Below are positions 4,452 to 52,078 of a stretch of 64,000 nt of DNA, piece after piece (the first letter of the stretch is position 1; every line of letters begins with the position of its first letter). A program made the position numbers and the translations under genes. Source of the DNA: Amyelois transitella (lineage: Eukaryota > Arthropoda > Insecta > Lepidoptera > Pyralidae); NCBI RefSeq assembly GCF_032362555.1, contig NC_083508.1:11809001-11873000 (forward strand), written 5' to 3'. The notes below the pieces were generated by a model. It worked only from the letters and a program-made list of their open reading frames with translations. It had not been told where the DNA came from and did no database searches.

Positions 4452-7400
4452 ATGGCTGCATATGTTAATCGCACTATATCCATGATGGCTGGCGACGGGC
4501 CCCACAATGTTGCGACGCTCAACAACGGATCCATCCGCATGAACATGTCAAACGTGGACTCCCCGCTGCAGATATTTGTGAGAGCCAAGAAGAAGATCAA
4601 TGATATATTTGTGGAAATTGATGACTATGTCAAAGATGCAGTCACCTACATGCATGGTGAGTCTATTCTTTTTATATCAACTGAGGCTAATATCCTTAGA
4701 CTCAATTAAAAATAAGAAAAAACAATAAACCATTTGTCCTATTTGATAATTTTAATTTGAACATTATCAATGATAGGTTGAATATATATGTTGTTGTCAT
4801 ACATATATCCCAGTTTTCTCACTTACTAATAATATCAGATAAGATAAATAGATACAAAGTTGCTGTAGGTAATGATTGATCTTATACTGTAACACTGTAA
4901 CAAATTCAGTATCAATTTTACTAGTTCAATGTCAGAATTTATTTATCAACTTTGTTTTAATTTGTTATTTGTTATTTCCTGAACATATGGAGCCCATGTT
5001 TCTCTTTTTCTGTGCCAAATAGCATCAAAATCGGTACAGTTGTTTTGAGTTACTTTTTTACAAACAAACAAACAAAAATATAATCATTTACATATATTAT
5101 ATGAAACATTTACATTTAGGGGTAACAAAACACCACACTGTTATAACTCTGTCAGTTGAAGTGCCCCTAATTATATTTTATTGACCTTGTCTCACTGTTG
5201 CCTAATCACAAACTGGAATGTATAATACATACTTGTTAAATAGTGGCTTATTGTCTACATTAGTATGTTTGAAATTATCACAATAGGAACCACAATTTTG
5301 GTTTAAACTTTCCTTTGATTTTGAAAAATTATGGATATATTATTATGGATATGGATAGCCAGCAGTCGTAAAAGACTTAATGCCATGGTCAGCTGTTCGG
5401 CTTAATGATAGAATAGACATTCAAAAAGAATCAAAAAGCTTGCTAAATAAATTGCTAGCCCATCGCCTAAAAAAAATCTCAAATTTATAAGCCTATCCCT
5501 AAGTCACCTTTTACGACATCCATAGGAACGAGATGGAGTTTTGCTATTCTTATTCATAATGGTGGCCAGAACCACACGGCATTTAATGAAGTTAGATTAA
5601 AATACTTTTTGTTAAGTAATGACCGCACATACATGTTCATGTTTTCAGCGGTCTCCGGCGAGAAAGGTATCGCGTCGCCGCAAGATGTCGCCACCGTGGA
5701 GGCCTATGTTAACAAAGTGCAAGCGATACGGGAGGTTCTCAAGAGGGATCACATGAAAGTAGCGTTCTTTGGCAGGTCAGTCATTGTAAATTTATTACAA
5801 AAAATTTAAGAAGTTGTTTGAGCTGAAAGAAAAACTAAAAAACTTGTTGTGTAAATGTTTGAAGGGTTGGGAAATATATTTTGTACTCTTTTTAAGCGAC
5901 TTAAAGAAAGGAGGAGGTTCTCAATTTGACTGTATTTATTTCTCTTTATGTATGCGACGAAAAATCTCCTGAGTTTATGATCTTATTGGAAAAATTATGA
6001 TTCTTTTATTGAAAGTAATATGAAAAATAATAAAACTTTGGTGATGCTGCCTTGACAAGAAAGGTTCCGGAAAACTTTTAAAGGTGTTCTTAGTTCAAGG
6101 GGTAAAATGAGAAATAATGATAGTTGGGTGTATGTACAGTACAGTATCTATTAAAAAGGTGTTCAATTAATATTTTTTCGAATTATTGGTTTTTAGCTAC
6201 CTGCATATGCCAAATTAATAAAAAAATGTTTAAGTGTTGTAAAAACTTACCAATTTTACTATACTACATACTCTCTCTCACTGTCTATAAAAATTGCTGT
6301 TAGCCATGACGTAGAAACTAAACAAAAATCACAATTTTACTTAACATATACATAAATACATACATATGAAAATCATGTCTTTTCGGGTAGAAAGAGACTA
6401 CATCTTTCCACTTCTATTTGACTTTGAAATTATATTGATAATAGAATAAAAATAATGACATTTCAGGACGAGCAACGGTAAAAGCACAGTTATAAATGCG
6501 ATGTTACACGACAAGATTCTCCCGAGCGGCATCGGGCACACCACCAACTGCTTCCTGCAGGTGGAAGGTTCGGACACGGACGAGGCGTTCCTGCGTACCG
6601 AAGGGTCGGAGGAGAAGCTCAATGTGCAGGTATTGTATTGAGATAGTTTGTGTTCTTTTTCTTTAGAAAGATAAATATATGTAAGATAAATTACACATAG
6701 GTATTGAGTTAGCCTCGAAGTAAGTTCGAGACTTGTGTTGCAAGATACTAACTCAATGATACTACATATATAGATAAACATACAAGACCCAGGCCAATCA
6801 GAAAAAGTTCTTTTCTCATCATGCCCTGGCCGGGATTTGATCCCGGGACCTCCGGTGTCACAGACAAGCGTATTACTGCTGCGCCACAGGCCGTCAAGAT
6901 GGCTTATTTATTTATTATTTATTTACTAATTTATGTACACAGAAAACATCGATACTGATAAACACAAGAAACAAAATTACAAAGGTTCTGCTTATTTCAA
7001 AAGAAATCTCTTCCAGTAGACCCGAGACAGGAGATGTGATGGAAAGGGTGACAGGCGTGTACTCCACTCACACAACTAATAATAGACATACATAAACAAA
7101 TACATAAATAAAATATAATAAAATAAATATATAAATACAAAAAAAAATAAACTTACATAAAGTAAATACAATATATACCAAATTAGCAAGGCTTGGAGAG
7201 GTAATAAATTTTTGGCTTATTGGAAATACATAGCTTATATATATGGCTTATAAACTTGGGATTCTACATTAAGGCGGTGGGCTAGCAACCTGTCATTTAC
7301 ATCCTCTCCAGGATAAAACACAGTGATACTATAAAGACTAATAGATCTGTACTACTTACCTATGTTTTACAATACATACATATGGTCACGTCTATATCCC

Positions 7401-10400
7401 TTGCGGGGTAGACAGAGTCAACAGTCTTGAAAAGACTGAATGGCCACATTCAAAAGCCAAATGGCTTAATGATAGAATTGAGATTCAAATAGTGACAGGT
7501 TGCTAATCCAACGCCTAAAAAAGAATCTCAAGTTTGTAAGCCTATCCCTTAAGTCGCCTTTTACGACATCCATGAGAAAGAGATGGAGTGGTCCTATTCT
7601 TTTTTGTATTGGTGCCGGGAACCACACATGTTTTACAATAAAGTTTAGTAGGTATTTGAAAAAAAAATTGTCACTGTTTGAATTTCAATGGTGTCATCAA
7701 GCCAAACGGCTGAATGTGGCCTGCCAGTGTTTCGGGTCTAACCTTTCTTTGCATGATGATGGAAATTTTAATCATAACATTTAGTGAAGAAAAAAAGGTA
7801 TTCAAAAACTGTTAACTTTAAATCTGTTGTTGCTGGCAACTTTATAAATGACTATTGCGTACAACAAAACCCTAGTACCAGTCTATTAGAAGAAGAATTA
7901 TAATAAAAAAAAAGAAAGGTCACTTCGGTGTTAATTTCCCAAATGTAAAGGCTATTCCACAATTTCGTGTAATCAATGTGGAGTTAAGGAGAATAAGTAA
8001 ACAATATCTTTTGACTTATTTAGTACTGAGCTATATAATAATATGTAACAATGCATAATGATGTAAATTTTCATCACTGTTTTTTAAACAATTCAAATTC
8101 TTATTTATACTAGGATTTTTTTTTTAATATTTTTCCTTTAATCTAGAGCATTAATTGCATCAAGCTGATTTATTAAAAAAAAATAATTGGAAAAATCATG
8201 CAATGAAGGGCTAAAGGAATGTCCCCCCCGCAGTCGGTGAGCCAGCTGGGGCACGCGCTGTGCGCGTCGCGGCTGCAGGAGTGCTCGCTGGTGCACGTGT
8301 ACTGGCCGCGCGAGCTGTGCGCGCTGCTGCGCGACGACGTGGTGCTGGTGGACAGCCCCGGCGTGGACGTCACGCCCAACCTGGACACGTGGATCGACCA
8401 GCACTGCCTCGACGCGGACGTGTTCGTGCTGGTGGCCAACGCCGAGTCCACGCTCATGGTCACGGTCAGTGCGGTCTCGCTCGCATCCTCACCTTGCTGC
8501 CCTGGTATAACTAAAATGCCGTTATCTGTCCAAACCCCTGTTTTAAGTAAAACGTCAAAAATGCGGTAAAAATTTAAACTGATGCCCCATTCATCAATGA
8601 GAACGCCTATTTGTGACTTAAAGGTACCTAAATGTCGTATATACAGATCGAAAGAGATTGTTTTTTTTGTTTATTCTACTGGTAAAAAAGGTGAAAATCC
8701 TGATGTCAGTAATGGCATTTTAGTTATACCACGGCAGCTTGGACAAGAGCGCATTGTGTATGTCTTTGATCATAGATCCTGGATTGGGGCGGTCGCATCT
8801 TCATCCCTCTGAATAGGAGCCGGGGGTAAACCTTTGTAATCATGGATCCTGGATTGGATGGGTCAGGTTTTTACACGAAACGACTACCATTTGACCTCCG
8901 CAACCTTTGCAGGGGGCCTGGGGAACCGGACCCGTATAGGATCGGTCTTGATTACACATCCAGTTGCCTGAATGTGCAAGTTTTCTCACGATGTTTCACC
9001 TCACCGTTATTGCATCGGTTAGTATTCAAGCTAATGTACGTAACTTCGAAAATTGCCATTGGTACATGACTCGAGTGGGATTCGAACCTGTGCCTTTTTA
9101 CGCCACACGCATTTTAACTCGATCGAATCGGTAAGGTGCGCACCTTACCGATTTGTTTATTACAAAAACATGTAAATGTTGACTTAAATAAAAAGAAAAG
9201 CTCCTTGAAAACGTGTATATTTTTTTTTCAGGAGAAAAATTTCTTTCACAAAGTATCGACGAAGATATCGCAACCGAATATATTCATACTGAACAATCGA
9301 TGGGACGCTTCGGCGTCAGAACCTGAGTATTTGGATCAGGTAAATATTCATATAGGTAGTTAATCAATTAATAAGTACTTGTAAAGTAAGTATCAATGTG
9401 GTATGAGTATTTAAAGAACGTAAATAAAGATATTGGTTGGCATATGGAAGTTTGATATGTAATAAGAAATATTTATACAGAGTGACATTTAAAACAACTG
9501 CATCCTTTTAAACATAGACTATACCCATGCTTCTGAGCCTTTTGAGCCTATTTTTATTTAAATTAAACGTCATCATTTTCACATTTAAAAATCCTCAAAA
9601 ACTACGTCACACGCTTTATTAAAGACCAATACTACAAAAAGAAACTAAAACTAAACATGTAAATAAATGTCTGAAAAATAAATAATTTTTCTAGTATCAA
9701 GATCAAGTAAAGTACAGAGTTGTCGAGATCGCTCAGCTGAATGAATTGTGTCGTTGACCTCTGAATCTTACGCGTCGCTTTTCCGCCGGCCGGGGTGATA
9801 TGAGGGTCATTCTACTTTTTAATGCAGGTTTTTGTGTCCCCCCGGCCAAAAATATCTGGATCTGCCATTTTACTAAAAAAATAAAAGGAATTTGCGAGAC
9901 ACGCAAAACTGCCGCATTATTACCTTAATTTCAATAAACATTTACATTTGAATATTTTACCTATTTTAGGTTATTTATGGTAACAAAGTGGAGTGTTACG
10001 GTAACGTAGTTGTTTTCCATAGTGTTGCAAAGTGTCCCCGGTCTAATGTACGCGGACTACCTAACCAAAAAAAGTATGTTTCTTAGAGTGGAGTCCTGCT
10101 TCAAAAAATTGGTAAGGTTACTTAATTTGTGGGCATTTATTTCGTTTTTATCATATACTTTTAATAGGTTTAGTTTTTTTTTAAATAAATAATTGGATTT
10201 TGTCCCTATAGAACAAGATAAATACAGTACAACTATGTTACCGCTTTTTAAAATACCGTTGTAGTCGCAGAGCACTGCTGGTCGCGTGCTCGATCGGTAG
10301 GATGTGCATGAGAAGAACAGGGTGGGGGGGAAAGGGGGAAAGGCCGCGCGACGCCATTTTAGTCACTGCCATGTTGAGAATCACGACGCGTGTGTTTATT

Positions 10401-13400
10401 CGGTGTGCACTTTGTTACCCGGCAAAAAGGTAAGTTTCTGAACTTTTACGTTATGTTTTAAACATTGAGACATAGTATTTATGTCACTTAGTTGTATTTT
10501 ATTGTGTGATTTGGAAATTACTTCATTGTTTCGTAAATATTAGATAAGATCATGTAATTTTACAACTGTGTTACTGGTCCACTTTGTTACTCCATTGTGG
10601 TAACCCAGTAGTAAAGAAGGTAACAGTTGTAAATATACTCTGCTAATGATACTTTCCAATTTGATTTAACTTTATTTGTTCGTACCGGACCCCTACGTTT
10701 GTAAATTACCAATTTTACATTTATTTACTGACTTACTATTATTACTAAAGGTAAAATTATGTGATCTTTTTATCTTTAACAGAACATCATGCCGCTAACA
10801 CCAGCCGAAAAACAACGTCGGTACCGAAACAAACTAAAATTAGACCCTGTTAAAGAAGAGGAAGCAAGAAAAAAAGCTTTGGAAAGGTACCACAAAACGA
10901 AACGCCTCGTCAAAGACTTATCGTCACGTGAACATCGCCAAATAAAAAAAAATGGCGGGTCGCCAACAGTAAAAGAAGGGACCGTATTCGCGCCCTGGAA
11001 TCTATTATAAGATATACTCCTGAATTGACACCTCAACCCGTTGTACCTCGTGAGAACACATCACCCACAGGACAAAATGCACCCAATATTCCTGAAAATT
11101 ATCCGATACCAGATTCTCGTAGGTTGTGTACACCTCTATGTCTATCTCCATTGCCTTCACGCCAGAATGCTCAAGAAAACGCTCAAGAACAGATGCCTAG
11201 ACAATCACTATTGCAATCATGTATGGCTCTGGAACGATCAACGTCAACGGTGACGTCATCTACATCAGCTTCTGCCTCTGCGAAGAATTGACGAAAACAA
11301 GTAACTTGAACAACTGTGTTACCATTGTGTCCCTAATTCTAAGTAAAGGTTTTTCAACTTGAGTTGTACAATTAGCTTATAAATTACATTAATGGTATAT
11401 GAAAACTAAGATATATATATATATTATAAATGTTAAATACGTTACTAAGATATTTGCAGACATAATATACATTTTATGTCAAATTATTGTAGACAAAAGT
11501 GCACAATAGTAACACAGTTGTCTTTTAAATGTGATTTATCAGACTGAATAAAAAATAATATCTAATTTTAGTTATGAAAGAGAAAGATATAGGTTTCTAA
11601 AATACGTTTTGTTAATTGTTTCTTTGTAATGAGTGACTAAAAGTACTCAATAAAAATATTTTGATTGGTAACAAAGTGGTATGATTTTCTTACCTTGGCC
11701 GACAAAACCCTTATTATCTGAATAAAATATGTGTAAAATTCGCTGCTGGCAGTTAATTGTAATTGTGTATGTATAATTACGCATAAATGCAGTAAAATTA
11801 CTTCATTTATCTTTAATCATAAAATTTTTGAAACCTACTTTTATCAGCGCCGAAAACCTGCACTAAAAAGTAGAATGACCCATGACCTATTTAGGATCGT
11901 GGATTTTTAAACTTTTATTTTGTTTTCGTACTTTCTGAAATATGAACCGATATTTTTCTTTTAACGTTTTTTAATATCCTTTAGATGAGTACACTTAACA
12001 GTTAAATTTATGCAGTTGAATTAAAAGTCACCCTGTATAGGTAAGTTTAAAGTGTGTGTCGCTCCATCAGGTCCGCAGCCAGCACGCCAACCGCTGCGTG
12101 GACTTCCTGTCGCGGGAGCTGCGCGTGTGCTCGCCCAAGGAGGCCGAGGAGCGCATCTTCTTCATCTCCGCCAAGGAGGCGCTGCTCACGCGCATGCGGG
12201 AGAGGGAGAAACCCGTGTCCTGTGAGTGCCCAAAGCATGATACATAATAATATAATACATACATAAAATCACGCCTCTTTCCCGGAGGGGTAGGCAGAGA
12301 CTACCTCTTTCCACTAATAATAATAATATACATATATATATATATATATATAATCTTATAATACATTGATATAACATTTTTTCTATTGGTGCCGTGTGGT
12401 TCCTGGAACCAATAGAAAAAAAGAATAAGACCACTCCCACATCTTTCCCATGGATGTCGTAAAAGGCGACTAAGGGATAGATTTCATCCATCTTGTCAGC
12501 GTAAAACACATCATCACACCTCTTTCTCAGACGGGTAGACAGGTTCCATCTTGTCAGCGTAGCGTTTTTTTTTTTGTCATAGCTTACTTATGTTTAGAAT
12601 AGAATAGATTTATTTTCAAAATTGGATACAAGTTATTGATAACTTAAATCTAATTATAACTACTACCGCTTCCAAAGCGCATGTGTAGAAGAAGCGGCGG
12701 AATAAACTACACTGCAGCATTTTCATCGGACGTCAATTTACAAATATAGATCTCTTAAATCTAAATCGTGGACGAATGCACATTGTCTACATTAAAAAAC
12801 ATGAATGAATGTACAACTAATTATGTCAATACGAATATTTCGTCAAATAAAATAAATATGTACCTACATACCTACTGTACAAATTATCATGTCAAAAATA
12901 CATAAGCATTTAAGAGGCCATTATGTCAAGCTCGGGCCGCACATGTTTATCATTATTTATGACGTTGTATCTATCATGCCAGCACCGATCCTGGCGGACG
13001 GGCACCAGGTGCGCTACTTCGAGTTCGTGGACTTCGAGCGCAAGTTCGAGGAGTGCATCAGCCAGTCGGCCGTGCGCACCAAGTTCGCGCAGCACTCGCG
13101 CCGCGGCAAGAACATCGCCGGCGACGTCATGGCGGCCCTCGACCGGGTAATCTACACTAATATTATAAATGCGAAAGTCTGTCTGTCTGTCTGTTCCTCT
13201 TTCACGGCCGAACCACTGAACCGATTTTGATGAAATTTGGTATGTATATAGTTTAAAACCCGCGTTCAAACATAGGCTACGTTTTTTTTTTCAAAAATCG
13301 ACTACCAAAATACTCAAATGGGGGGGTGAATATGATCTCTATAGCAAGTAACTAGCTGCGCCCCGGGGCTTCGCTCCCGTGAGAATTTCGGGTTAAAAAC

Positions 13401-16400
13401 GACTCTATGTGTTATTCTAGGCTATATTCTACCCATGTACTAAATTTCATCAAAATCTGTCCAGTAGTTTTTGCGTGAGAGAGTAACAAACTCCGCTAGT
13501 ACGCTGAGGAAGTCGCGGGTACACAGCTAGTAATACATATAATCACGTCTATATCACATGCGGGGTGGACAGAGCCAATAGTCCCGAAAAGACTGAATGG
13601 CCACGTTCAGCTATTTGGCTTAATGGTTAGAATTGAGATTCAAATAGTGACAGGTAGCTAGCACATCGCCTAAAAGAAGAATTTTGCACCAAGTTCGCGC
13701 AGCACTCGCGCCGCGGCAAGAACATCGCCGGCGACGTCATGGCGGCCCTCGACCGGGTAATAATGCATCACGTCTATATCACATGCGGGGTGGACAGAGC
13801 TAACAGTCCCGAAAAGACTGAATGGCCACGTTCAGCTGCTCGGCTTAGCCGCTTATGTTCACGTCTATGTCACATGCGGAGTGGACAGAGCTAACAGTCC
13901 CGAAAAGACTGATTGGCCACGTTCAGCTGCTCGGCTTAGCCGCTTATGTTCACGTCTATATAACATGCGGGGTGGACAGAGACAATAGTCTTCAAAAGAC
14001 TGAATGGCCACGTTCAGCTGCTCGGCTTAGCCGCTTATGTTCACGTCTATATCACATGCGGAGTGGACAGAGCTAACAGTCTTCAAAAGACTGAATGGCC
14101 ACGTTCAGCTATTTGGTTTAATGGTAGAATTGAGATTCAAATAGTGACAGGTAGCTAGTACACCGCCTAAAAGAAGAATCGTCAAGTTTATAAGACTATC
14201 CCTTAGTCGACTTTGAGATATCCATGGGAAAGAGATGGAGTGGTCCTATACGTTTTTTTTATTGGTGCCGGGAACCACACGGCACTTTAATTAAATCAAA
14301 ATCCACAGGTTTACAACACGGCGACCGATCTGAAAACAGCGAAGGTTGAGAAACAGCGCATCCTACACGAACAGCTGACCGCCATCGAAGAACAACTCAC
14401 CACCATCACGAGGCAGATGAAGGAGAAGATTAACAGAATGGTGGAGAGCGTGGAGCATAAGGTAACATCTATACTAATAAATATAATATAAATAAATAAT
14501 ATATATGAGATAAATTACACTGATTGAGTTAGCCTCGAAGTAAGTTCGAGACTTGTGTTACGAGATACTAACTCAGCGATACTATTTTTTATAATAAATA
14601 CTTATATAGATAAACATCCAAGACCCAGGCCAATCAGAAAAAGTTCTTTTCTCATCATGCCCTGGCCGGGATTCGAACCCGGGACCCCCGGTGTCACAGA
14701 CAAGCGTACTACCGCTGCGCCACAGAGGCCGTCGATATTAATATTATAAAGCTGAAGAGTTTGTTTGTTTGTTTGAACGCGTTTATCTCAGGAACTACTG
14801 GTTCGAATTGAAAAAAATATTTTTGCGTCGAATAGACAATTTATCGAGGAAGGCTTTAGGCTATATAACAGCACGCTGCAACTGTAAGGAGCAAAGAAAT
14901 AATGGAAAATGTGAAAAAAAAACGGGGAAAATTATTCATCCTTGAGGGCTTCGATGATGCCCATAATAACTTTTCCACGCGGACGAAGTCGCGGGCACAG
15001 CTACTGTTTCAGTAACACGTTTAAGGACCTGTCCCGACTGACTGACCTGTCCTCCAAGGGACAGACGGACTCTTAACGTTTCGTGACGTTTAGATAAATT
15101 AGTTAAAAAAAAATTATTCATTAATATGGGACAACTTATATCACTTAATAATTGTCATATCTTTTGGTTTCACAACATTGGTTGACGTCAAATGAATTAC
15201 TTACAACGTAGTAGCGGCACGCGGGAAGCTCTCTCATTGGTCGTTCGAGACGGAACAACAACTGTTAAAGGAAAATTCGCAGTGCGCATTACCATAAGCA
15301 TAGTGTTAACTTAGTAAATTATACAATCAAAATTCCTTTCTCAGTCCTTTCTTTAAAATTACAATAATACATCTTAATACATCTTGTAGCTCGAATTCCC
15401 TTTTTTTTCAATCACCAAAAAACGCGGCTCACTCAAAGGTCAAAAAGCAAACTCGGTATTGCCAACACATGATAATAAAATACTATTTTTTTTTTAATTT
15501 TAATAAAAATGATAGGGTCACCAACCTTACGAACAAAAATAGGGTTGGACAAATATCGGTGGTAAAACCGGGATGCGCGCTTCAGTATGTTTGATCGGCC
15601 AGGTGTCCCTGACGCTGAGCCAGGAGATCCGCCGGCTGTCGGCGCATTACGATACGCATAGTGATAGGGTCACCAACCTTCCAAAAAAAAATAGGGTTGT
15701 ACAAACATCGGTGGTAAAACCGGAATGCGCGCTTCAGTATGTGTGCTCGGCCAGGTGTCCCTGACGCTGAGCCAGGTGATCCGCCGCCTGTCGGCGCATT
15801 ACGGATAGATACATACAGATAGGGTTACCAACCTTCCAAATAAACAAAAATAGGGTTGTACAAACATCGGTGGTATAACCGGGACGCGCGCTTCAGTATG
15901 TTTGATCGGCCAGGTGTCCCTGACGCTGAGCCAGGAGATCCGCCGGCTGTCAGCGCAGTACGATACGCATAGTGATAGGGTTACCAACCTTCCAAATAAA
16001 ATAGGGTTGGACAAATATCGGTGGTAAACCTGGGACGCGCGCTTCAGTATGTTTGATCGGCCAGGTGTCCCTGACGCTGAGCCAGGAGATCCGCCGGCTG
16101 TCAGCGCAGTACGATACGCATAGTGATAGGGTTACCAACCTTCCAAATAAAATAGGGTTGGACAAATATCGGTGGTAAACCTGGGACGCGCGCTTCAGTA
16201 TGTTTGTTCGGCCAGGTGTCCCTGACGCTGAGCCAGGAGATCCGCCGCCTGTCGGGGCATTACGACACGCATAGTGATAGGGTTACCAACATTCCGAATA
16301 AAAATAGGGTTGTACAAACATCGGTGGTAAAACCGGAATGCGCGCTTCAGTATGTGTGCTCGGCCAGGTGTCCCTGACGCTGAGCCAGGAGATCCGCCGG

Positions 16401-19400
16401 CTGTCGGCGCATTACGATACGCATAGTGATAGGGTCACCAACCTTCCAAATAAAATAGGGTTGGACAAATATCGGTGGTAAAACCGGGATGCGCGCTTCA
16501 GTATGTTTGTTCGGCCAGGTGTCCCTGACGCTGAGCCAGGAGATCCGCCTGCTGTCGGCGCATTACGATACGCATAGTGATAGGGTTACCAACATTCCGA
16601 ATAAAAATAGGATTGCCAACCTTACAAACAAAAATAGGGTTGTACAAACATCGGTGGTAAAACCGGAATGCGCGCTTCAGTCTGTGTGCTCGGCCAGGTG
16701 TCCCTGACGCTGAGCCAGGAGATCCGCCGGCTGTCGGCGCTGGTGGACGAGCACGAGGCGCCGTTCCGCGCGGAGCGGCCGGCGCTGGAGCAGTACAAGC
16801 GCGCGCTGCACCGCCACGTGGAGGCGGGGCTGGGCTCGCGGCTCAAGCAGCGGCTCTCCGCCGACATCGGCCACGAGATGGACCAGGCGCAGCAGGAGAT
16901 GGCAGGTCGGTTTTGTGAAGGGACACTACGTTGTTTGATACATGATTGATTTGATTATCATACTAATAAATATAAATATATACGGGACAAATTACACTGA
17001 TTGAGTTAGCCTCGAAGTAAGTTCGAAACTTGTGTTACGAGATACTAACTCAACGATACTATATTTTATAATAAATACTTAAAGGTATAGATAAACATCC
17101 AAGACCCACGACAATCAGAAAAAGTTCTTTTCTCATCATGCCCTGGCCGAGATTTGAACCCGGGACTGATGTTATGAATGTGGATGAAGCGAAGGAAGTG
17201 TGCAGAGATCGTGGCAAATGGAAAGAGGTAGTCTTTGCCTACCCCTCCGGGAAAGAGGCGTGATTTTGATGTATGTATGTATGTATACATAACTGATTTG
17301 ATTATCCTACTTATGTTATAAATGCGAAAGTTTGTGTACGTCAGGATGACAGTATAGATGTTTGTTACTCTTTCACGTTAAAACTAATGAAACGGTTAAG
17401 ATGTAATTTGGTATGTGGGTAGCTGAAGATCCAGAATAACATATAGGCTAATTTTTATCCAGGAGTTCCCGCGGGATTGATAGGGTTTCCATGTGGACGA
17501 AGTCGCGGGCGGCCTCTAGTTGAAAATAAAACTGAAGTTCTATGAAACTGATCTTGGTTTGATTTTGAGAAATTGACGGTGGGAATTTATGATGGTATAA
17601 ACAAATGCTGCAATTGCTTGAACATAACACTGAACTATAACTATAACTGATTTAGATAGTTTGACAATAAAATTACGCTCAATAATTAGGGTATGAAATA
17701 CAATGAACTAATATTTCATAATAATGGGCTCTTTAAACAATTTCTGACTTAACATTCTATTTTGGTTTTTCTTTTTTTCTTAGTGGCCAGTTTCAGTCAT
17801 AAATAGTTTGAACACTTGCCTTATTTTGTACTTAACTTTTAACAGGGGTAAATTACAAATAATATAATAAATTCGAAAGTGAGTTTTGTTTGTTTGTTAC
17901 CTCTTTACAGGTTACTTAATACGAGTAAGTATTCTTGAAATAGAACGTGTATATAATTAATAGTCTGGTGAAGGACATTTTCTTCCAATAAAAACTATAG
18001 TTACTGTGGGATTTGCGAATTACCTGAATTTTATACGTGACATTTAATCCGAACATAAAACTGAGCAAATTTTACTATGGGACCAATCTAGAAAAAGCCA
18101 AAATATATTTTACAGAATCCGGATTCCAGTTTCCTTTAACAAAGGGAATTTTACGAAAATAATATAATGATAAAGATAACATTTCTCCAATCTACTCTAC
18201 AGATCGCATGTACAACATCCTGCCCCAACACAAGCGAGCAGCCGCAGCAAGTTGCATCATCCCACACCAGCAACCTTTCGAGGTTCTATACCGGCTCAAT
18301 TGCGACAACTTGTGTGCTGATTTCCAGGAAGACCTTTCCTTTAGGTTTTCTTACGGGATCACGGCGCTCATACAGCGTTTCCACGGGAAGAATTCAAATA
18401 AAATCGCGTTGAAGAATCCTCCTACATATACACAGGTAAATTGTATTAATTGGCTATTAAGTTTAAAAGTGTACAACTGAGAGAGTGTTGTTCTTGGTAT
18501 CTTAGTATGGGAATAAAGGAAAAATTAGAAAAATAGAAATTTAAAGGAAAAATCACTTATCTAGTGTAAAATGTATGATCTAAAGAGGTCTTCTGTTATC
18601 TGTTGCTAAGTTTAATTGTTTGAGTTTCTTTAAGATTTAAGTCATAGAAATACCTCGTTCCTCTTCAAGTAGTGTACAATCGGGATAAATGTTGGAACGA
18701 CTATGAAAATTTTTCTTAGAAATTGTTATAAGGTTTTCTAACAATTTTTGGTGGCAGCGGTGGGATTTCAAATATTTTTTTTGTTCAGATTCCCCCAACA
18801 GTGAGCAACCTCCCCGCTAACAACATGGAGGTGGTGCGCAGTAACGGCGCCAGTATCGGGCCGTTCAGCGCCGAGGAGTGGAGCATGGTGTCCAAGTTCG
18901 CGCTCGGGGCATTGACCTCGCAGGGCACCATGGGCGGGCTACTGCTGTCTGGACTGGTATGATACCTTTTTACCGTCTTGCTAGTCATTTTAAGGTAGGC
19001 AGAGATTATGTATTGTGTCTCGCAACGATCCTTACAGACCTCTCCCGCTTCTTTCACACTCATTACTCTTTTCATGCACATTCGACGATTACGGTCACTC
19101 CTAACATCTCCTTTTTTCTAGACATCAAGTTCAACGAGGCCGGCCCTGTCCCACTTTTACAGTCAGCTCTGCCTTATAAATTCCTTTCGTTAGTTGCCGT
19201 GTGGTTCCCGGCACCAATACAAAAATGAATAGGACCACTCAATCTCTTTCCCATGGATGCCGTAAAAGGCGACTAAGGGGTAGGCTTATAAAATTGTGAT
19301 TCTTTATCTCAGGCGATGGGCTAGCAACCTGTCACTATTTGGATCTCAATTCCATCATTAAGCCGAGCAGCTGAACGTGGCCATTTAGTCTTTTCGGGAC

Positions 19401-22205
19401 TATTGGCTCTGTCTACCCCGTAGGGGATATAGACGTGACTATATGTATGTATGTAGTTTGCTAGTTATTTAACCTCGTTCCAATAAAATGTTATGTTATA
19501 TATATATATAACTTCGTTCCAGTTGTTAAAAACGGTCGGGTGGCGCATAGTGGCGGTGACGGGCGTGCTGTACGGCGCGCTGTACGCGTACGAGCGGCTC
19601 ACGTGGACCGCGCGCGCGCAGGAGCGGCTCTTCAAGCGGCAGTACGTGGCGCACGCCGGCAAGAAGCTGCGGCTCATCGTGGACCTCACGTCCGCCAACT
19701 GCAGCCACCAAGTGCAGCAGTGAGTGGTCGCGATGTGTTTGTTGTGACATGAAACATATACTATCTCTATACACACAAGCAGTACGTGGCGCACGCCGGC
19801 AAGAAGCTGCGGCTCATCGTGGACCTCACGTCCGCCAACTGCAGCCACCAAGTGCAGCAGTGAGTGGTCGCGATGTGTTTGTTGTGACATGAAACATATA
19901 CTATCTCTATACACACAAGCAGTACGTGGCGCACGCCGGCAAGAAGCTGCGGCTCATCGTGGACCTCACGTCCGCCAACTGCAGCCACCAAGTGCAGCAG
20001 TGAGTGGTCGCGATGTGTTTGTTGTGACATGAAACATATACTATCTCTATACACACAAGCAGTACGTGGCGCACGCCGGCAAGAAGCTGCGGCTCATCGT
20101 GGACCTCACGTCCGCCAACTGCAGCCACCAAGTGCAGCAGTGAGTGGTCGCGATGTGTTTGTTGTGACATGAAACATATACTATCTCTATACACACAAGC
20201 AGTACGTGGCGCACGCCGGCAAGAAGCTGCGGCTCATCGTGGACCTCACGTCCGCCAACTGCAGCCACCAAGTGCAGCAGTGAGTGGTCGCGATGTGTTT
20301 GTTGTGACATGAAACATATACTATCTCTATACACACAAGCAGTACGTGGCGCACGCCGGCAAGAAGCTGCGGCTCATCGTGGACCTCACGTCCGCCAACT
20401 GCAGCCACCAAGTGCAGCAGTGAGTGGTCGCGATGTGTTTGTTGTGACATGAAACATATACTATCTCTATACACACAAGCAGTACGTGGCGCACGCCGGC
20501 AAGAAGCTGCGGCTCATCGTGGACCTCACGTCCGCCAACTGCAGCCACCAAGTGCAGCAGTGAGTGGTCGCGATGTGTTTGTTGTGACATGAAACATATA
20601 CTATCTCTATACACACAAGCAGTACGTGGCGCACGCCGGCAAGAAGCTGCGGCTCATCGTGGACCTCACGTCCGCCAACTGCAGCCACCAAGTGCAGCAG
20701 TGAGTGGTCGCGATGTGTTTGTTGTGACATGAAACATATACTATCTCTATACACACAAGCAGTACGTGGCGCACGCCGGCAAGAAGCTGCGGCTCATCGT
20801 GGACCTCACGTCCGCCAACTGCAGCCACCAAGTGCAGCAGTGAGTGGTCGCGATGTGTTTGTTGTGACATGAAACATATACTATCTCTATACACACAAGC
20901 AGTACGTGGCGCACGCCGGCAAGAAGCTGCGGCTCATCGTGGACCTCACGTCCGCCAACTGCAGCCACCAAGTGCAGCAGTGAGTGGTCGCGATGTGTTT
21001 GTTGTGACATGAAACATATACTATCTCTATACACACAAGCAGTACGTGGCGCACGCCGGCAAGAAGCTGCGGCTCATCGTGGACCTCACGTCCGCCAACT
21101 GCAGCCACCAAGTGCAGCAGTGAGTGGTCGCGATGTGTTTGTTGTGACATGAAACATATACTATCTCTATACACACAAGCAGTACGTGGCGCACGCCGGC
21201 AAGAAGCTGCGGCTCATCGTGGACCTCACGTCCGCCAACTGCAGCCACCAAGTGCAGCAGTGAGTGGTCGCGATGTGTTTGTTGTGACATGAAACATATA
21301 CTATCTCTATACACACAAGCAGTACGTGGCGCACGCCGGCAAGAAGCTGCGGCTCATCGTGGACCTCACGTCCGCCAACTGCAGCCACCAAGTGCAGCAG
21401 TGAGTGGTCGCGATGTGTTTGTTGTGACATGAAACATATACTATCTCTATACATACATAGATGTTATAAAAAAAAACAATCAACAATCTTGAAAAATACA
21501 TACATACATGTAATCACGTCTTACGGGGTAGACAGAGGCAACAATCTTGAGAAGATTAATAGGCCACGTTCAGCGGTTAGGCTTGATGATAGAATTGAGA
21601 TTCTAATAGTGACAGGTTGCTAGCCCATCGCTTAAAAGAAGAATCTCAAGTTTATAAACCTTATCCCTTAGTCGCCTTTTACGACTTCCATGGAAACGAA
21701 ATGGAGTGGTTCTATTCCTTTTTTTTTATTGGTGCCGGGATCGACACGGCTATTTTTATTATACTATAAATAATAAATAAATATAAAATTACACAGATTG
21801 AATTAGCCTCGAAGTAAGTTCGTGACTTGTGTTACGAGATATCAACTCAACGATACTATATTTTATAACCAATACTTGTAAGTATAGATAAACATCAAAG
21901 ACCCAGGCCAATCAGAAAAAGTTCATTTCTCATCATGCCCTGGCCGGGATTCGAACCCGGGAACCCCATTGAACATTCGTCAATTTTGTTTTCTTTTTTC
22001 CAGAGAACTATCGACAATGTTCGCCCGCCTGTGCCGCCTCGTGGACGAGGCTACGACCGAGATGGACGAGGAGTTGTGCGAAGTGAAGGAGGCCATCAAA
22101 ATGCTGGACGAAGCCTCCACCTCGGCCAAGAAGCTGCGGAACAAGGCCAATTATTTGTCCCACGAGTTGGAGCTGTTTGATGACGCCTTCCTGAAGCTCA
22201 ACTAG
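4452..22205 (+). CDS. Marf: Mitofusin / mitochondrial assembly regulatory factor, outer-membrane fusion GTPase
   Basis: Thirteen coding exons: 4452-4656, 5649-5775, 6467-6629, 8234-8464, 9232-9339, 12071-12221, 12983-13146, 14309-14461, 16698-16905, 18203-18435, 18789-18956, 19523-19719 and 22004-22205. They sum to 2310 nt, or 769 aa, a normal mitofusin length, and every join is in phase. The GTPase domain shows the P-loop GRTSNGKST (110-118), DSPG (205-208) and NRWD (264-267). A paired hydrophobic anchor spans about 617-660 (exons 11-12), and the C-terminal HR2 coiled coil is in exon 13. Family members fuse mitochondrial outer membranes. Exons 4, 6, 7, 9 and 12 are strikingly GC-rich; exons 2, 5, 8 and 10 are not. 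Edges of exons 7, 9 and 12 are tandemly duplicated into neighbouring introns (listed separately). Only the splice site contiguous with each full exon gives the complete protein. Confidence 0.95.
5358..5582 (-). mobile_element. TATG-tailed SINE (S1) in Marf intron 1
   Basis: The order of S1 landmarks on the opposite strand matches the other copies: the AACCACACGGC head at the right, the TTACGACATCC block, then CATCGCC. It lacks the terminal TATG tail and is diverged. Confidence 0.65.
6660..6895 (-). mobile_element. tRNA-derived SINE (family S2) in Marf intron 3
   Basis: Read on the minus strand, the element begins with a tRNA-like head containing an A-box-like TGGCGCAGC and a B-box region close to GGTTCGAATCC. 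A body TGATTGGCCTGGGTCTTG and a tail TTAGTATCTTGCAACACAAG follow. It is a SINE, not a tRNA gene: the tRNA part is fused to an unrelated body that is repeated at 14486-14735 and elsewhere. Confidence 0.8.
7371..7627 (-). mobile_element. TATG-tailed SINE (S1) in Marf intron 3
   Basis: Near full-length inverted copy: CATACATATGGTCACGTC at the left, CTTGCGGGGTAGACAGAGTC, CTTTTACGACATCCATG, then GGGAACCACAC at the right. Intron 3 otherwise (6896-8233) shows AT-rich sequence with no exon. Confidence 0.8.
8780..9130. mobile_element. SINE-like repeat S3 in Marf intron 4
   Basis: Shares ATGGATCCTGGATTGG, GTTGCCTGAATGTGCAAG and GTGGGATTCGAACCTGTGCC with the copy at 45060-45395. The last word is the complement of a tRNA B box, suggesting a tRNA-derived head. 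Confidence 0.65.
9804..11881 (+). mobile_element. DNA transposon with 29-bp terminal inverted repeats, in Marf intron 5
   Basis: The left end 9804-9832 begins GGGTCATTCTACTTTTT, and 11853-11881 is its inverted copy with one mismatch. ATGA directly precedes the left end (9800-9803) and directly follows the right end (11882-11885), which fits a 4-bp target duplication. The 2.08 kb interior carries one recognisable open frame encoding a basic protein (10789-11291). No transposase catalytic motif was recognised, so the element may be non-autonomous or of an unfamiliar family. Confidence 0.75.
10789..11291 (+). pseudogene. Transposon-borne basic protein, frameshifted
   Basis: The first frame (10789-11010) starts [15 protein letters not shown] and continues with a Lys/Arg-rich helix containing [13 protein letters not shown]. 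This start recurs in uncharacterised repeat-associated proteins of insects and other animals. A run of A at about 10941-10951 appears to shift the frame: the adjacent frame continues with a basic RIRALES-type helix and runs on to the stop at 11291 through a Pro/Ser/Thr-rich tail. The basic region looks DNA-binding, but that is inference. It lies inside the inverted-repeat element and is probably dead in this copy. Confidence 0.55.
12262..12318 (-). repeat. RTE-type LINE 3' end, short fragment
   Basis: The complement of this stretch encodes the end of the RTE tail also seen at 17169-17286: GAGGTAGTC, then CTCTGCCTACCCCTCCGGG, then AAAGAGGCGTGA. Confidence 0.55.
12391..12486 (+). mobile_element. 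TATG-tailed SINE (S1), 5' fragment
   Basis: Has the S1 head: GCCGTGTGGTTCCTGG, CCAATAGAAAAAAAGAATA, CCCATGGATGTCGTAAAAGG. It is truncated after GGGATAG. Confidence 0.65.
12597..12745. repeat. Interspersed repeat R5 in Marf intron 6
   Basis: Contains GAATAGATTTATTTTCAAAA, CCGCTTCCAAAGCGCATGTG and CACTGCAGCATTTTC. The same words occur inverted at 33421-33575, and related pieces lie at 15120-15205, 37565-37715, 39540-39735 and 40425-40507. Confidence 0.65.
13075..13150 (+). repeat. Marf exon 7 tail plus donor, original of a duplication
   Basis: The last about 72 nt of exon 7 and the first bases of its intron are repeated exactly at 13686-13761, 611 bp downstream. This copy is continuous with the rest of exon 7, so its donor (after 13146) is the functional one. 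Confidence 0.85.
13155..13535. mobile_element. Composite of Helitron-like fragments in Marf intron 7
   Basis: The stretch starts CTACACTAATATTATAAATG and contains AACCGATTTTGATGAAATTT. A second piece starts ACTAGCTGCGCCCCGGGGCT and ends GGAAGTCGCGGGTACACAGC followed by TAGT. Both are typical of short Helitron-like elements of Lepidoptera that end CTAG. Confidence 0.55.
13532..13684 (-). mobile_element. TATG-tailed SINE (S1), fragment
   Basis: Inverted S1 3' half from AATCACGTCTATATC to CATCGCCTAAAAGAAG. It stops abruptly at the second copy of the Marf exon 7 tail, showing that the duplicated segment contained exon tail plus SINE. Confidence 0.7.
13686..13761 (+). repeat. Duplicate of Marf exon 7 tail with splice donor
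   Basis: This is an exact copy of 13075-13150, including CTCGACCGGGTAAT where GTAAT is the donor. It has no upstream exon part, so it should not be used as an exon. It shows that a piece of about 611 bp was tandemly duplicated. Confidence 0.85.
13762..14100. repeat. Four tandem SINE-tail units, about 90 bp each
   Basis: The unit runs CACGTCTATATCACATGCGG, GGTGGACAGAGCTAACAGTC, TGAATGGCCACGTTCAGC, GGCTTAGCCGCTTATGTT. It repeats about four times with small differences (for example CCCGAAAAG against TTCAAAAG), then leads into a full S1 copy. It is derived from the S1 3' end. Confidence 0.8.
14020..14283 (-). mobile_element. TATG-tailed SINE (S1) directly before Marf exon 8
   Basis: Full inverted S1 whose GGGAACCACACGGCAC head ends about 25 nt upstream of the exon 8 acceptor (14308). 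The element may therefore supply part of the acceptor context. Confidence 0.75.
14486..14735 (-). mobile_element. tRNA-derived SINE (S2), best-preserved copy
   Basis: On the minus strand the head reads GGCCTCTGTGGCGCAGCGG, then GTAGTACGCTTG, a box B GGTTCGAATCC and CCGGCCAGGGCATGATGAG. The S2 body and tail follow. Both internal pol III boxes are intact in this copy, so it could have been transcribed recently. Confidence 0.85.
14740..15003 (+). mobile_element. Helitron-like element (family H2), copy 1
   Basis: Runs from TTATAAAGCTGAAGAGTTTG to GACGAAGTCGCGGGCACAGC then TACTG. A second copy at 40110-40388 shares GGCTTTAGGCTATATAACA, CACGCTGCAACT and TTCCACGCGGAC. Confidence 0.65.
15500..16697 (+). 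repeat. Seven tandem copies of the head of Marf exon 9 with its acceptor
   Basis: The first 42 nt of exon 9, preceded by CGGCCAG, occur at 15603, 15755, 15914, 16065, 16216, 16368 and 16519. The true exon starts at 16698. Spacings are 152, 159, 151, 151, 152, 151 and 179 bp. Each unit also carries about 110 bp of intron with CGGTGGTAAA and GCGCTTCAGTATGT. Copies differ by several substitutions, so the array is older than the exon 12 array. Using an upstream acceptor would read into the next unit and meet a TGA there. Confidence 0.9.
16966..17168 (-). mobile_element. tRNA-derived SINE (S2), truncated head
   Basis: S2 tail and body are present, but the tRNA-like head stops at AACCCGGGACTGAT. 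It is directly joined to the RTE end that follows. Confidence 0.75.
17169..17286 (+). mobile_element. RTE-type LINE 3' end
   Basis: Encodes the last about 30 residues of an RTE-clade reverse transcriptase ([15 protein letters not shown], then YPSGKEA and stop), followed by a GTAT repeat tail. The same end occurs at 37872-38048 and 60767-60920. It is 5'-truncated. Confidence 0.75.
17296..17521 (+). mobile_element. Helitron-like element (family H1), older copy
   Basis: Runs TATCCTACTTATGTTATAAA to GGACGAAGTCGCGGGCGGCC then TCTAGT. Diverged from the younger copies at 31021-31228 and 48357-48565. Confidence 0.65.
17522..18202. other. AT-rich remainder of Marf intron 9
   Basis: I see no gene or repeat here apart from short AT-rich runs. 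The end supplies the exon 10 acceptor TCTACTCTACAG. Confidence 0.5.
18965..19100 (-). mobile_element. Degenerate RTE LINE 3' end in Marf intron 11
   Basis: The complement encodes a diverged version of the RTE C-terminus ([15 protein letters not shown]) with several changes relative to the copy at 17169. Confidence 0.55.
19195..19457 (+). mobile_element. TATG-tailed SINE (S1) in Marf intron 11
   Basis: Full copy from GCCGTGTGGTTCCCGGCACC to GGGGATATAGACGTGACTAT with a TATG tail. It ends about 65 nt before the exon 12 acceptor. Confidence 0.8.
19640..21453 (+). repeat. 140-bp minisatellite: thirteen copies of Marf exon 12 tail plus donor
   Basis: The unit is the last 80 nt of exon 12 (from CAGTACGTGGCG to CAGTGCAGCA-type end CAAGTGCAGCA) plus 60 nt of intron beginning GTGAGTGGTCGCG. 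AGTACGTGGCG starts recur exactly every 140 bp: 19641, 19781, 19921, 20061, 20201, 20341, 20481, 20621, 20761, 20901, 21041, 21181 and 21321. All copies look identical by eye; the last ends at 21453. The first copy is part of the working exon. Each unit carries the same strong donor. Read-through past the first donor meets TGA immediately. The array is either very young, homogenised, or partly an assembly artefact. Confidence 0.95.
21496..21748 (-). mobile_element. TATG-tailed SINE (S1) in Marf intron 12
   Basis: Inverted S1: CATACATACATGTAATCACG, GGGGTAGACAGAGGC, TTTTACGACTTCCATGG, head near CGGGATCGACACGGC. Confidence 0.75.
21776..21967 (-). mobile_element. tRNA-derived SINE (S2) next to Marf exon 13
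   Basis: S2 body and tail, with the tRNA-like head cut just after the B-box complement GGATTCGAACCC. It ends about 37 nt before the exon 13 acceptor at 22003. Confidence 0.75.
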
Positions 22206-30650: not shown

Positions 30651-33600
30651 TCACAACGCAATGATCTTATCTTTAAGTTCTTTCAGTTCCTTCGCGTGGA
30701 TCCATTTGATGCCAGTCGCGGATGCTGAGCTCGACGGACGTGAAATGCACCTGAGATCAAAACAACAAAAAAATTACATTTGAATTTGAAAGGCTTTATG
30801 TTAGGTTAGGTAAGTATTGAAAATTTAACATTTTTTCAAATAAAGGATATGATGTATGGATGTTTGTTACTCTTTCACGCAAAAACTACTGAACCGATTA
30901 CCATGAAATTTGGTATGTAGGTAGCTGAAGACCCAGAATAACACATAGGCTACTTTTTATCCCAGAGTTCCCGCGGGATTGATAGGGTTTCCATGCGGAC
31001 GAAGTCGCGGGCGGCCTCTATATCCTACTACTATTATAAAGGCGAAAGTTTGTATGGATGTATGGATGTTTGTTACTCTTTCACGCAAAAACTACTGAAC
31101 CGATTACCATGAAATTTGGTATGTAGGTAGCTGAAGACCCAGAATAACACATAGGCTACTTTTTATCCCAGAGTTCCCGCGGGATTGATAGGGTTTCCAT
31201 GCGGACGAAGTCGCGGGCGGCCTCTAGTACCTAATATGTATAGTTAAGTCCCTGTACTCCAAACCCAACAGTTTTGATAATATATTAGTAGAACTGCACA
31301 CAAAAAAAAATTAAGTACCCAATTTTCCTCCCGAGCAAATTCGAAATTCGAACGCCGCAAAACGGCCACGGGCCCTGATTTTTATGCTCCTCCTGACAGA
31401 AGAAGACCTTGGCCTTCTCGTATTTGCAATATTCGCGCAGCACCAGGTCGTAGGGGAACGGGTACAGTTGCTCAATACGACACATTGCTATTTTGTCCTC
31501 CAGCTTCTTCTCTTTGCGCAGTTCGTCGATGGTGATGGCCACTTTTCCCGAACAGAATAGTAGTTTTTGCACGCATTCAGGCTTCTGCGACGCCGGCCCG
31601 CTTTCTGGAATCGCCCTGTGTAGAAGACATGAGTTATAATGTTTGAACTTTCTCTGATTGGCCTGGGTCTTGGATGTTTATCTATGTAAGTAAGTATTTA
31701 TTCTAAATAGTATCGTTGAGTTAGTATCTCGTAACACAAGTTTCGAAATTTAGAAAAATGAATGACAAAGACACAATGAATGAAGGTAACTGTGTTTTTA
31801 TTATTCTATGCCTACAGTTCATTGTCAAGTCAGTAGGTAAATGTTCATCGCTGACTATTTGGGCAACTGGCTAAGAAAATTATAACAAATTAGTTCAAAA
31901 GCGTACCTCTGAAAGCAGGTTCCCAGCTTGAAATCTTTGAAATTGGACCTGTAGTAGGGATGTTTCAAGCCGACCTTGGGCGTCATCAGAATGACCGGCT
32001 TCCTGAAGGGCATGGCGAGCTGCCGCCGGATCATGTGGAAGTAGTTCGCTGGCGTCGTCAGGTTCATGACGATCCAGTTGCAAGCTCGGAGCTGTTTCAC
32101 TGAGTATTTACAAAGGCTATGTTTGTTAGTTTTCAAAGGATGCAAAAGAAGCAAAAGCTTAGAATGATTTACAAAAGAACTAGCGACCCGCCCCGGCTTC
32201 GCACGGGTGCAAAATTCGGAAAAAATTATACATAAAAACCTTCCTCTTGAATCACTCTACCTGTTACAAAAAACCGCATCAAAATCCGTTGCGTAATTTT
32301 AAAGATTTAAGCAAACAGACTAAAATAGCGACTTTGTTTTATACTATGTAGTGAAGAGATTAGGTTAGGAATTAGTCTTTTATCTCACCTGATCTAGGGA
32401 TTTCACTCGCATAGAAATTAGAACAATAAAATTTTCGCAAATATTTAAATTTAAGTCTGTGTGTCATTGAGTTATTAACTAGTAGTCATATTAGTATTTC
32501 ATCTCGTCAATAAGGCTGACTCACCCACAAATTCGGGGTCGTCCAGATCCGGTATGATGTCCTCGTCATCGTCAGCTTGTTGGAGGTAACGCTCCACTCG
32601 CCCAGACGAATGCTCTGGGCCCTGTGCGACGCCGATGTTAGAAATTATGGAATTAAATTTTATGATCTCTCTAACATAAGGTGTTGGTTTCTAGGATGTT
32701 ACTATACTATGAAATTTTCGGCGACTATAGGTATGTTTCACCATGATCCAATGTGCTTGAATTCACCCTGCAAATTTGTGGAGGTCACGTGAAAGTCAGA
32801 CGCTTTCTGTGAAAACTTGACTATATACCCCATAATTAAGGTTATCACTTGGACCAGCCGGACCCTGGCCTTCTGATGAGGACGCCACCGGGTCTATACG
32901 GTTAGGCGTAACTTATAACAAAGAAATGTGCCGTGTGGTTCCCGGCACCAATACAAAAAAGAATAGGACCACTCCATCTCTTTCCCATGGATGACGTAAA
33001 AGGCGACTAAGGGAAAGGCTTACTAACTTGGGATTCTTTTTAGGCGACGAGCTAGCAACCTGTCACTATTTGAATCTCAATTCTATCATTAAGCCAAATA
33101 GCTGAACGTGGCCATTCGATCTACCATTCGATCGAGACTGTTGGCTTTGTCTACCCCGCAAGGGATATAGAAGTGACTATATGTATGTATGTATGTATAA
33201 CATAGAAATACTAACAGCGCCATCTATCCCGTGGGGCAGTTGCACCACGAGACCGGACTGCGCGACCCACTTGCTCTCGCCGTTCGCGATGAACGTGTCG
33301 AACACGGGCTGCGCCGTGTCCGCAAAGTCACCGTACTGCGCCTCCCATATCGTAAGCAGGTTCGGACTCGAGTAAGAGTAGCCCACTTCGAAACCGAGGA
33401 TGCCTTTATGAGGAATGATGAATCCGATGAAAATGCTGCAGTGTAGTTTGTTCCGCCGCTTCTTCTACACATGCGCTTTGGAAGCGGTAGTACAGTTATA
33501 ATTAGATTTAAGTGATGTGACGTCAATAAGTGATACCTTGTATCCAATTTTGAAAATAAATCTATTCTGTTCTAGTGCTTTATGAATTGCTTGTGAATGA

Positions 33601-36600
33601 TCCGTGAACGAATACGGTACCCTGATGAACTAGTATTAGAGTTTATATCTACAATAATGTGCGTAAATATTTATAATCACATACTTGGATACATTTTGTA
33701 ACTAGAAAATAAATCCTACTAATTTTATAAATGCGAAAGTTTGTGAGTTTGTCAGTATGAATGTTTGTTAGTCTTTCACGCAAAAACTACTAAACCGATT
33801 ACGATAAAATTTAGCATGTAGGTAGCTGAAGATCCAGAATAACATATAGGCTACTTTTTACCCCGGAGTCCCCGCGGAATTGATAGGGTTTCCATGCGGA
33901 AGAAGTCGCGGGCGGCCTCTAGTTCAAATAATTTATGGCTAATAAGTAATACAATTTATACGGTTGAGGAGATTTTAAATTTTAAATGACACTAATTAAT
34001 TTATGCATAAGGTGCCCAGATAAAATACGTGTAGCGCAAAGAGACACAGATTTGAATACCAGCTCAGCCATAAGCCAATGATTATTTTCGAAGTTATTTA
34101 CAATAGTTTGAATACCAACCGATGTCCTTAGGGTGAGGAAAAACATCGTGAGGAAACCTGCACATTCATGCACTGGATGTGTAACAATGATCGATTCAAT
34201 ACGGGTTAGTTCCCCTGCAAAGGTTACGGAGGTCAGACGGGAATCGCTTCGTGTAAAATCTGACTCACTCAATCCAGTGTCCATGGTCAAAGGTATACTC
34301 CCGCGGGATTTGGTAAAAATGTGTATTATTATAGATGGCGCTAAATTCGCGCGTAGCAGGCTGCGCATACAAGCTAGTGTTCTATAATAGCTTAAGTAAT
34401 AAATGCTCACACGCATTGACGTTATCTTTAGTCGTAAGAAGTATGGTCCACTTACCAAACTCGCTGAGGGCGCTGTTGTGCAGACTGTAAATGGCCTGGT
34501 CCGGGTACAACTGGTCGAAGACGCGGTAGGTGGCGCCATCTACCCCCTGGTGATGGTATACGTGGTGCCTGCACATTTCCGTCAAATGTTTATTCTACTA
34601 AAGGTCATTCTTTTGATTATTTGACATTTATATAAATTTAAATCTATACTATTGAATAGAATAGATATATTTTAAAAATTTGCACCCGTGCGAAGCCGGG
34701 GCGGGTCGCTAGTTAATCATATGACACAAGTAGGTAACCAATCCAAAACGGATACAACTTACCTATGAGCCATGGTGCCTCTCTCAACGTCCTCACCAGT
34801 GAACCTGATGTGGACGCCGTCTCGTAGCAGAGAACCGTATGCCAGGGCTTCACCCATGGCCCAGTCCGCTACACCCTCTTTTACCTAAAGGAAACAGTCA
34901 GTTTCATCTTCAGGAAAACATGCAACAGACTTCAGACATTACCCCGGTTGCATTTTCCCCGAAGAAGAAGTCAGGGTTTGCTTCTGGTTGGTAGGTACAC
35001 CGCACGTCACTATTTTCAAAATTATGCACATTAGTTTGATTACTAACCGATGCTTTTACGGTTAGGGAAAAATCGCGAGGAAACCTGCACATTCAGACAA
35101 CATTTAAATAACGGATTTAACATTATCAACATTGTTTGTTTAATAAAGTTTAAATAAACAAACATCTAGCCTGGTGGAAGATTTCGAAGAAGAGCACGAA
35201 TCATCGCTTCCGCTACACCATACACATACATACATACATATGGTAACACAGATTAACTTAGTTTATAGTCATGGATTAACGTACACTACAAAAAACAAAT
35301 TAAATAATAAAACTTAAAACGAAATAACCAAAAACATAACTCACAAATCGTCGCGGTAGCGCGCGGGAAGTCTCTTCCTGGTGGTGGCGTGATGCGCCCG
35401 ACCAATCACCGTGCTTGTCACAGTGTTGCCTGTTACAACATGTTTCTTACCATCTTTTCTCTGTTCTGCAGGATCCTGCCGAGTCCTTTGTGTAGCTCGA
35501 ACGCCCAAAGTTCCGGCGGCTTGCAGAAGTGCTGCGAGATCGTGGATATTGTCGCTTCGCATATGCCAGTCTCCTCGATCTGGGGATGTTTATGGTTATA
35601 TCACACAAATAGATTCTAGTTGAAGCACAGTTGCGGAGGTCAGACGGGAGTCGCTTCCTTGTAAAAATCTGATTCACCCAATCCGGGCCTCTGGGTCAGG
35701 GGCTTACCCGAGCTCCTCTCCAGAGTGGAAGAAGAAGGCAGTTAAGCACAGTGTGTTTTTATACTTAATGCAAGCGAGATTAATTTTCTTTCTAGATTCG
35801 GCTAGTTATTAAATATATCAGGGCACAAGGTTTGGTCTCTGGTACATTCGAGGCTGCTTTTTCGCTTGGATGTCGTAAGAGGTAACCACGATAATTACCA
35901 CTTCGACCTACTTAGTACAACAACCATTATCCAAAGGACGCCAAAGCTTTCGCATTTGGTCGATTCAGGCGCTTACCAAGTTAAGCAGCTCAGCCGAGAA
36001 GTTGCTTAATTTCGAAAGTATAGCTAAGCCCACGCCCTTTAAAAAATTGTAACACTCGTCGAATAAAGATTATCTCTATTCTATGAATTTTTAAACTATC
36101 AGTCATCTTCCGCAGACCGCATACCACTACCTCCGGGAACGAGACGTGATGGGGTGCGGACATCATGGCCGCCAATTAGGTGCTTTTTAAAATTTGCAGC
36201 CATGCGATTCCCACGAGACGCGATGGAAAAATAATGTCCACCCCAGCAGAGCCTCGCATGCCAGGGTAAGGCTAGCTAAACGTCACAAGTTACTATTAGA
36301 TATAACGTGATCTTACCTTCTTAGGGTCTTTGGCCTCAAAGAAGCCAGTCCAGGGCGTGTCGATCCAGTCCATGATGCTGAGCTTGGTGACCTTCTTCGC
36401 CAGCTCGAAGTGCTTGTTCAGCGTGTCCATGTACTCCTTCTCCCACTGCTTGATGTCCGCGTCGGTTATCACACCCTCCGCCTTCAGCTTTGCTTCGTAT
36501 ATCTTGTCCACTGTATTTAAGAACACTTGTGATTCGGAATTTCCTCCCACCATCTCTCTGCCCCGATACATATAACTTTGGGATTTTAAGATTTAAGGGA

Positions 36601-52000: not shown

Positions 52001-52078
52001 ACCCCCACATTTCCATATCTCCTAAGTCATTTCTAATGCTTTGGATAGAGGTAGTCCTGTCAATAAGTCTATCAGAAC

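Follow-up and report, generated by a model that had tools for sequence, protein, structure and literature searches.

The window analyzed here, a 64,000-nt stretch of the Amyelois transitella genome (contig C4, NC_083508.1, positions 11,809,001-11,873,000; positions below are those of the window unless another stretch is named), contains Marf, a mitofusin gene in which the tail of exon 12 and the adjoining splice donor form a tandem array on the plus strand (19640..21453). The array comprises 13 units of 140 bp, the first 12 identical and the last identical to them for 134 bp. We consider it probable that this array is a minisatellite of the type designated mirage in amphioxus, which would have grown from a short duplication crossing the exon-intron boundary and would be removed with the intron. 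The analysis is based on the genomic sequence of one assembled haplotype.

Each unit consists of the last 80 nt of exon 12 and of 60 nt of intron 12 beginning with the donor. Tandem Repeats Finder (TRF) reported 13.0 copies of period 140 at 19639-21457 with 99% matches. Direct comparison of the copies revealed that units 1 to 12 are identical at 140/140 positions and that unit 13 carries 3/140 differences, all located in its last 6 bases. Unit 1 is the exon 12 tail itself, and units 2 to 13 lie inside intron 12. The array runs into unique sequence on either side without a break, its outer end passing into other intron sequence. The unit-to-unit junctions are alike in 12/12 cases, suggesting that a single founding duplication was subsequently copied. 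A 44-base probe taken from the unit had 13 exact matches in the window, a number reached by none of 100 shuffles. Searching the whole assembly (327 Mb, 33 contigs) with the 140-bp unit returned 13 matches, all at this locus, among the best-scoring candidates, a search that distant copies may escape.

The Marf gene (4452..22205, plus strand) was modeled with 13 coding exons and 12 GT-AG introns, giving an intact frame of 2310 nt for a protein of 769 residues. The protein contains the Pfam domains Fzo_mitofusin (PF04799) and Dynamin_N (PF00350), and its top match in the PDB is mitofusin-2. Exon 12 (19523..19719, plus strand) is 197 nt long with a G+C content (GC) of 0.66; its last 80 nt are the exon part of unit 1, and its GT donor lies at 19720. 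Intron 12 (19720..22003, plus strand) spans 2284 nt, about 1.7 kb of which is array, and exon 13 (22004..22205, plus strand) joins exon 12 in an intact frame. An earlier note on this DNA had assigned the array to exon 12 of Marf, described its unit as half exon (80 nt) and half intron (60 nt) with a first unit still used as exon, and reported copies identical across 1.8 kb. The gene model and the comparison of the copies confirm this description, the last 6 bases of unit 13 being the only place where variant bases were found. When the Marf protein was compared with the genome (E up to 0.001), 26/26 of the matches listed fell within the Marf locus, corresponding to the 13 exons, the 12 further copies of the array, and a copy of the exon 7 tail. 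Among these listed matches there was no sign of a second Marf copy or of a pseudogene.

Candidate splice sites were scored with a crude acceptor matrix built from 12 sites only. The two candidate acceptors of the unit scored -3.88 and -0.26, and the 12 genuine Marf acceptors scored -1.75 to 12.19. Since each extra unit offers a donor and only a weak acceptor, the array is expected to leave the transcript with intron 12 and the Marf protein to be unchanged. Reading through the first donor leads to a stop after residue 703. Insertion of one or two 80-nt units shifts the Marf frame, and insertion of 3, 6, or 12 units keeps it. Thus, only the first of the 13 identical donors would give the normal product, unless units are spliced as exons. 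The array therefore probably has no effect on the Marf protein and is probably neutral for Marf, as judged from these predicted splicing outcomes.

Two other exon boundaries of Marf are duplicated. At exon 7, which ends at 13146, the last 71 nt of the exon and 5 nt of the intron (13076..13151, plus strand) are repeated once, 610 bp downstream (13686..13761, plus strand), with 76/76 identical positions and with the donor. Immediately 3' of the second copy, 13768-14110 holds an array (91 bp × 3.8) of a fragment resembling a short interspersed nuclear element (SINE). An insert (13152-13541) separates the first exon 7 tail from this SINE-like piece; it has GTAAT on either side, as seen by eye, and resembles a later transposon insertion.

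At exon 9, the duplicated boundary is the acceptor. Seven decoy copies of the acceptor and exon head, with upstream intron (15511..16578, plus strand; units of 151-156 bp), precede the genuine exon (16698..16905, plus strand), which is the 3'-most copy. The seven decoys and the real exon each carry the acceptor and the first ~43 nt of the exon, and the eight copies are 82-97% alike. The exon 9 array is older and more diverged than that of exon 12. The seven decoy acceptors (15603-16519) scored 4.84-9.08, compared with 3.90 for the real exon 9 acceptor, according to a small matrix based on the 11 other Marf sites. Joining exon 8 to a decoy and reading unspliced through to the end of exon 9 introduced a premature stop in all seven cases. 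The decoy heads gave no indication of selection, as variable columns numbered 5/43 in the exon part and 14/96 in the intron part (Fisher p 0.79); pairwise differences were fewer in the exon part (38/903) than in the intron part (143/1917). The chance that three random Marf segments of these sizes would all cross an exon boundary is p ~0.005, a value that is only indicative, since the window was picked for one of the three segments and the unit length for exon 7 (225) was estimated.

Recurrence elsewhere in the genome was assessed in a blind control consisting of 25 stretches of 10 kb (250 kb, contigs C1-C21), the positions of which were fixed beforehand with their content unseen. TRF detected three arrays with a period of at least 60 bp and at least 3 copies, two of which share one gene. 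These two arrays repeat an exon tail and its donor on the minus strand of stretch L019 (C11:2200001-2210000), at 4861-5340 (74 bp × 6.5) and 7976-9447 (122 bp × 12.1). The gene encodes an SNF2-type helicase, based on the Pfam SNF2 domain in the joined exons and on two exons that have as their top match in the PDB a chain called 'Helicase-like protein'; we take it, by name, to be BTAF1/Mot1-like. In this BTAF1-like gene, exon A (174 nt, GC 0.71) is followed by 5 identical 74-bp units running from donor to donor and a partial unit, and exon B (133 nt, GC 0.74) by 11 identical 122-bp units and a partial unit. Both arrays thus stand on the donor side of a real exon. In both, the units have in common their differences from the real exon, as would be expected had a single copy diverged before its multiplication. 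The 122-bp unit had 12 matches in the genome, all at its own locus among the matches listed. In the stretches flanking the BTAF1-like gene (L032 and L033), which were chosen afterwards and are not blind, TRF found no array with a period of at least 40 bp. The earlier note had called this type of array rare; the two other boundary duplications of Marf and the two arrays of the BTAF1-like gene in the blind sample leave that view without support for this genome.

The third blind array (L022, C14:5200001-5210000, positions 2118-2936; 120 bp × 6.7, 96% matches) lies just upstream of an apparent coding exon. It contains seven GTGAGC motifs, which could be donors of a 5' untranslated region exon.

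If a random segment has a 5-12% chance of crossing a coding boundary, finding that two of the three blind arrays cross an exon boundary has a p of 0.007-0.04, the true figure being weaker because the two arrays belong to the same gene and are not independent. The exons with an array or a duplicated end are GC-rich: GC is at least 0.65 in 5/5 of them, as opposed to 2/14 of the other modeled exons (Fisher p 0.002), in a test that was devised post hoc. Adding three open frames of L032 brought the others to 4/17 (p 0.005); these frames were 3 of the 11 listed, after overlapping or repeat-like ones had been dropped, and are not modeled exons.

The first alternative to consider is that the units are used, the 80-nt copies acting as cassette exons that would produce frame-shifted, poison isoforms of Marf or, when included in multiples of three, lengthened ones, and thereby tune the level of Marf. 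Every unit has a GT at the end of its exon part and AG|CAG ahead of it, the exon copies being separated by a 60-nt intron. The exon part reads open when one or two units are inserted, and the frame is preserved with 3, 6, or 12 units. Use of units as exons may occur, since the score of the better acceptor (-0.26) lies within the range of the genuine sites, near its lower limit. Against this, the acceptors are weak: among the 834 other AGs in Marf, 207 score at least as high as the -0.26 site and 419 at least as high as the -3.88 site. In addition, the gap between a donor and the next exon copy, as measured by alignment, is 4 and 19 nt in the two BTAF1-like arrays, which is too short for an intron, so that the recurrent feature requires no splicing of units. 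We therefore regard cassette use as unlikely.

The second alternative, about as improbable, is an artefact of assembly or polishing, the true locus having a single tail or a small number of diverged copies. Such an artefact would be consistent with the perfect identity across 1.8 kb, and one amphioxus mirage was misassembled in a genome draft, according to the description of Additional file 4 in the globin paper (PMC3087553). However, the window contains no N and belongs to a 13.2-Mb contig, two similar arrays exist on another contig, and 13 identical 140-bp units would hardly be resolvable by short reads alone. The exon 9 array, located ~3 kb upstream, retains unit-specific variants, indicating that polishing did not homogenize all copies.

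Finally, inverted SINE-like repeats on opposite strands (19196-19459 and 21493-21750) flank exon 12 and the array, and are 81% alike in a gapped alignment and 75% complementary ungapped, but that they drove amplification or back-splicing is very improbable. Their position is judged a coincidence, since merged matches to this family number 32 in the window, pair included, making a nearby pair on opposite strands unsurprising. Moreover, the unit begins within the exon and not at a splice site, and is therefore not a back-splice product.

A mirage-type minisatellite that originated in a boundary-crossing duplication thus remains the best explanation of the exon 12 array. We infer that a short tandem duplication, starting inside GC-rich exon 12 and ending ~54 nt into intron 12, founded the array, with a few bases altered at its junction. 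Growth to 13 units would have proceeded by unequal exchange or replication slippage, rolling-circle or microDNA intermediates being one possible route. The array would be young or would have been kept homogeneous; of the three origins initially proposed for it, recent expansion and homogenization provide the best reading, and assembly error is less likely. At a mutation rate of 2.9e-9 per site per generation, zero changes in 1814 bp imply that the present copies are at most ~570,000 generations old. Slippage driven by hairpins was considered and rejected because the single-strand fold of the Marf unit is not better than that of shuffled sequences (z -0.15); the values for the other units are -0.35 and 0.74 (BTAF1-like) and -0.88 (exon 9). 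In the transcript, the array lies wholly 3' of the real donor and would be spliced out with intron 12. Similar events have affected further ends of GC-rich exons, both in Marf and in the BTAF1-like gene. Duplications yielding a well-spliced additional exon would frequently disrupt the frame and be eliminated, which would leave half-exon units as the survivors. The array would persist because each unit carries a single splice site that lacks a good partner.

Several observations weigh against this explanation. The better unit acceptor scores above the genuine sites of exon 4 (-0.36) and exon 8 (-1.75), and the donor of exon 12 (1.76) is the lowest-scoring of the 12 Marf donors. Recurrence amounts to two genes, both blind exon-tail arrays being in one gene. 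GC-rich sequences without arrays exist, namely Marf exons 4 and 6 and open frames in L032, and the Marf unit has no special single-strand fold.

More broadly, a continuing mutational process in this genome may preferentially amplify GC-rich exon ends along with a single splice site, and mirage arrays would in that case be present in many genes. Arrays with up to twelve or more identical donors, or with several decoy acceptors, would then be tolerated and would feed intron growth and the formation of new exons. We propose this generalization tentatively, at somewhat less than an even chance. That mirages are present in two genes of an insect suggests that this mutational route to long introns, and perhaps to new introns and exons, is a wider one. 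Marf also offers natural tests of splice-site choice, with exon 12 followed by 12 more copies of its own donor, and of exon definition, with exon 9 preceded by seven decoy acceptors of higher score.

Other repeats were observed in passing. On the minus strand, 51363-54542 contains the frames of a retroelement, in which Pfam recognized a reverse transcriptase as well as a phage-integrase SAM-like domain; we take this element to be DIRS-like. A duplication of 206 bp × 1.8 (30851-31226) is 100% identical, and its repeat family is also present at 33710-33923. In the blind stretch L021 (C13:4200001-4210000), a 288-bp direct repeat (7835-8122 and 8328-8615; 99.3% identical, 493 bp apart, GC 0.46) resembles a dispersed repeat.

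Our literature search, restricted to open-licence papers, recognized no earlier account of Marf arrays or of insect mirages, which is not a claim of their absence in print. In amphioxus, mirages are described as minisatellites across exon-intron boundaries on either side of the exon, variable in length and said to leave splicing undisturbed; they occur in Adh3, the globin genes BflGb6 and BflGb9, and troponin C, with similar repeats in PGBD5 (PMC3087553, PMC3902484). The first report considers them possibly general in cephalochordates (PMC3087553). The Marf array resembles the mirages described there in that its unit crosses an exon-intron boundary and the real boundary is the end copy. Also as in those descriptions, both donor sides (Marf exons 7 and 12, and twice in the BTAF1-like gene) and an acceptor side (Marf exon 9) are involved, and several genes per genome are affected, two of them here. 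Unit sizes overlap with those given for amphioxus (150-160 bp for the globin genes and 10-72 bp for Adh3). Copies are homogenized as in mirages, with 12 identical units in Marf and 5 and 11 in the BTAF1-like gene; those of the exon 9 array are only 82-97% alike. The differences are the lepidopteran genome and the identity of the genes, the copy number (up to 13, versus 6 in one BflGb6 haplotype and 3 in the other), and the complete identity of the full units of three arrays, versus 81-100% in BflGb6. On genomic anatomy, unit size, and recurrence, the exon 12 array may thus be classed as a mirage that is new in its place and copy number. Intron gain by tandem duplication has been reported for Drosophila cases (PMC2891723). 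In a potato case of intron gain, duplication over an intron-exon boundary brought ready splice signals, likewise in Marf; the potato duplication was single and became a new spliced intron, whereas Marf has many copies that are candidate exons with weak acceptors. The kringle IV-2 array of LPA is a large coding variable number tandem repeat made of exon and intron. Like the Marf array, it repeats in tandem a unit holding both, but its units contain complete spliced exons and alter the protein, whereas those of Marf contain part of an exon.

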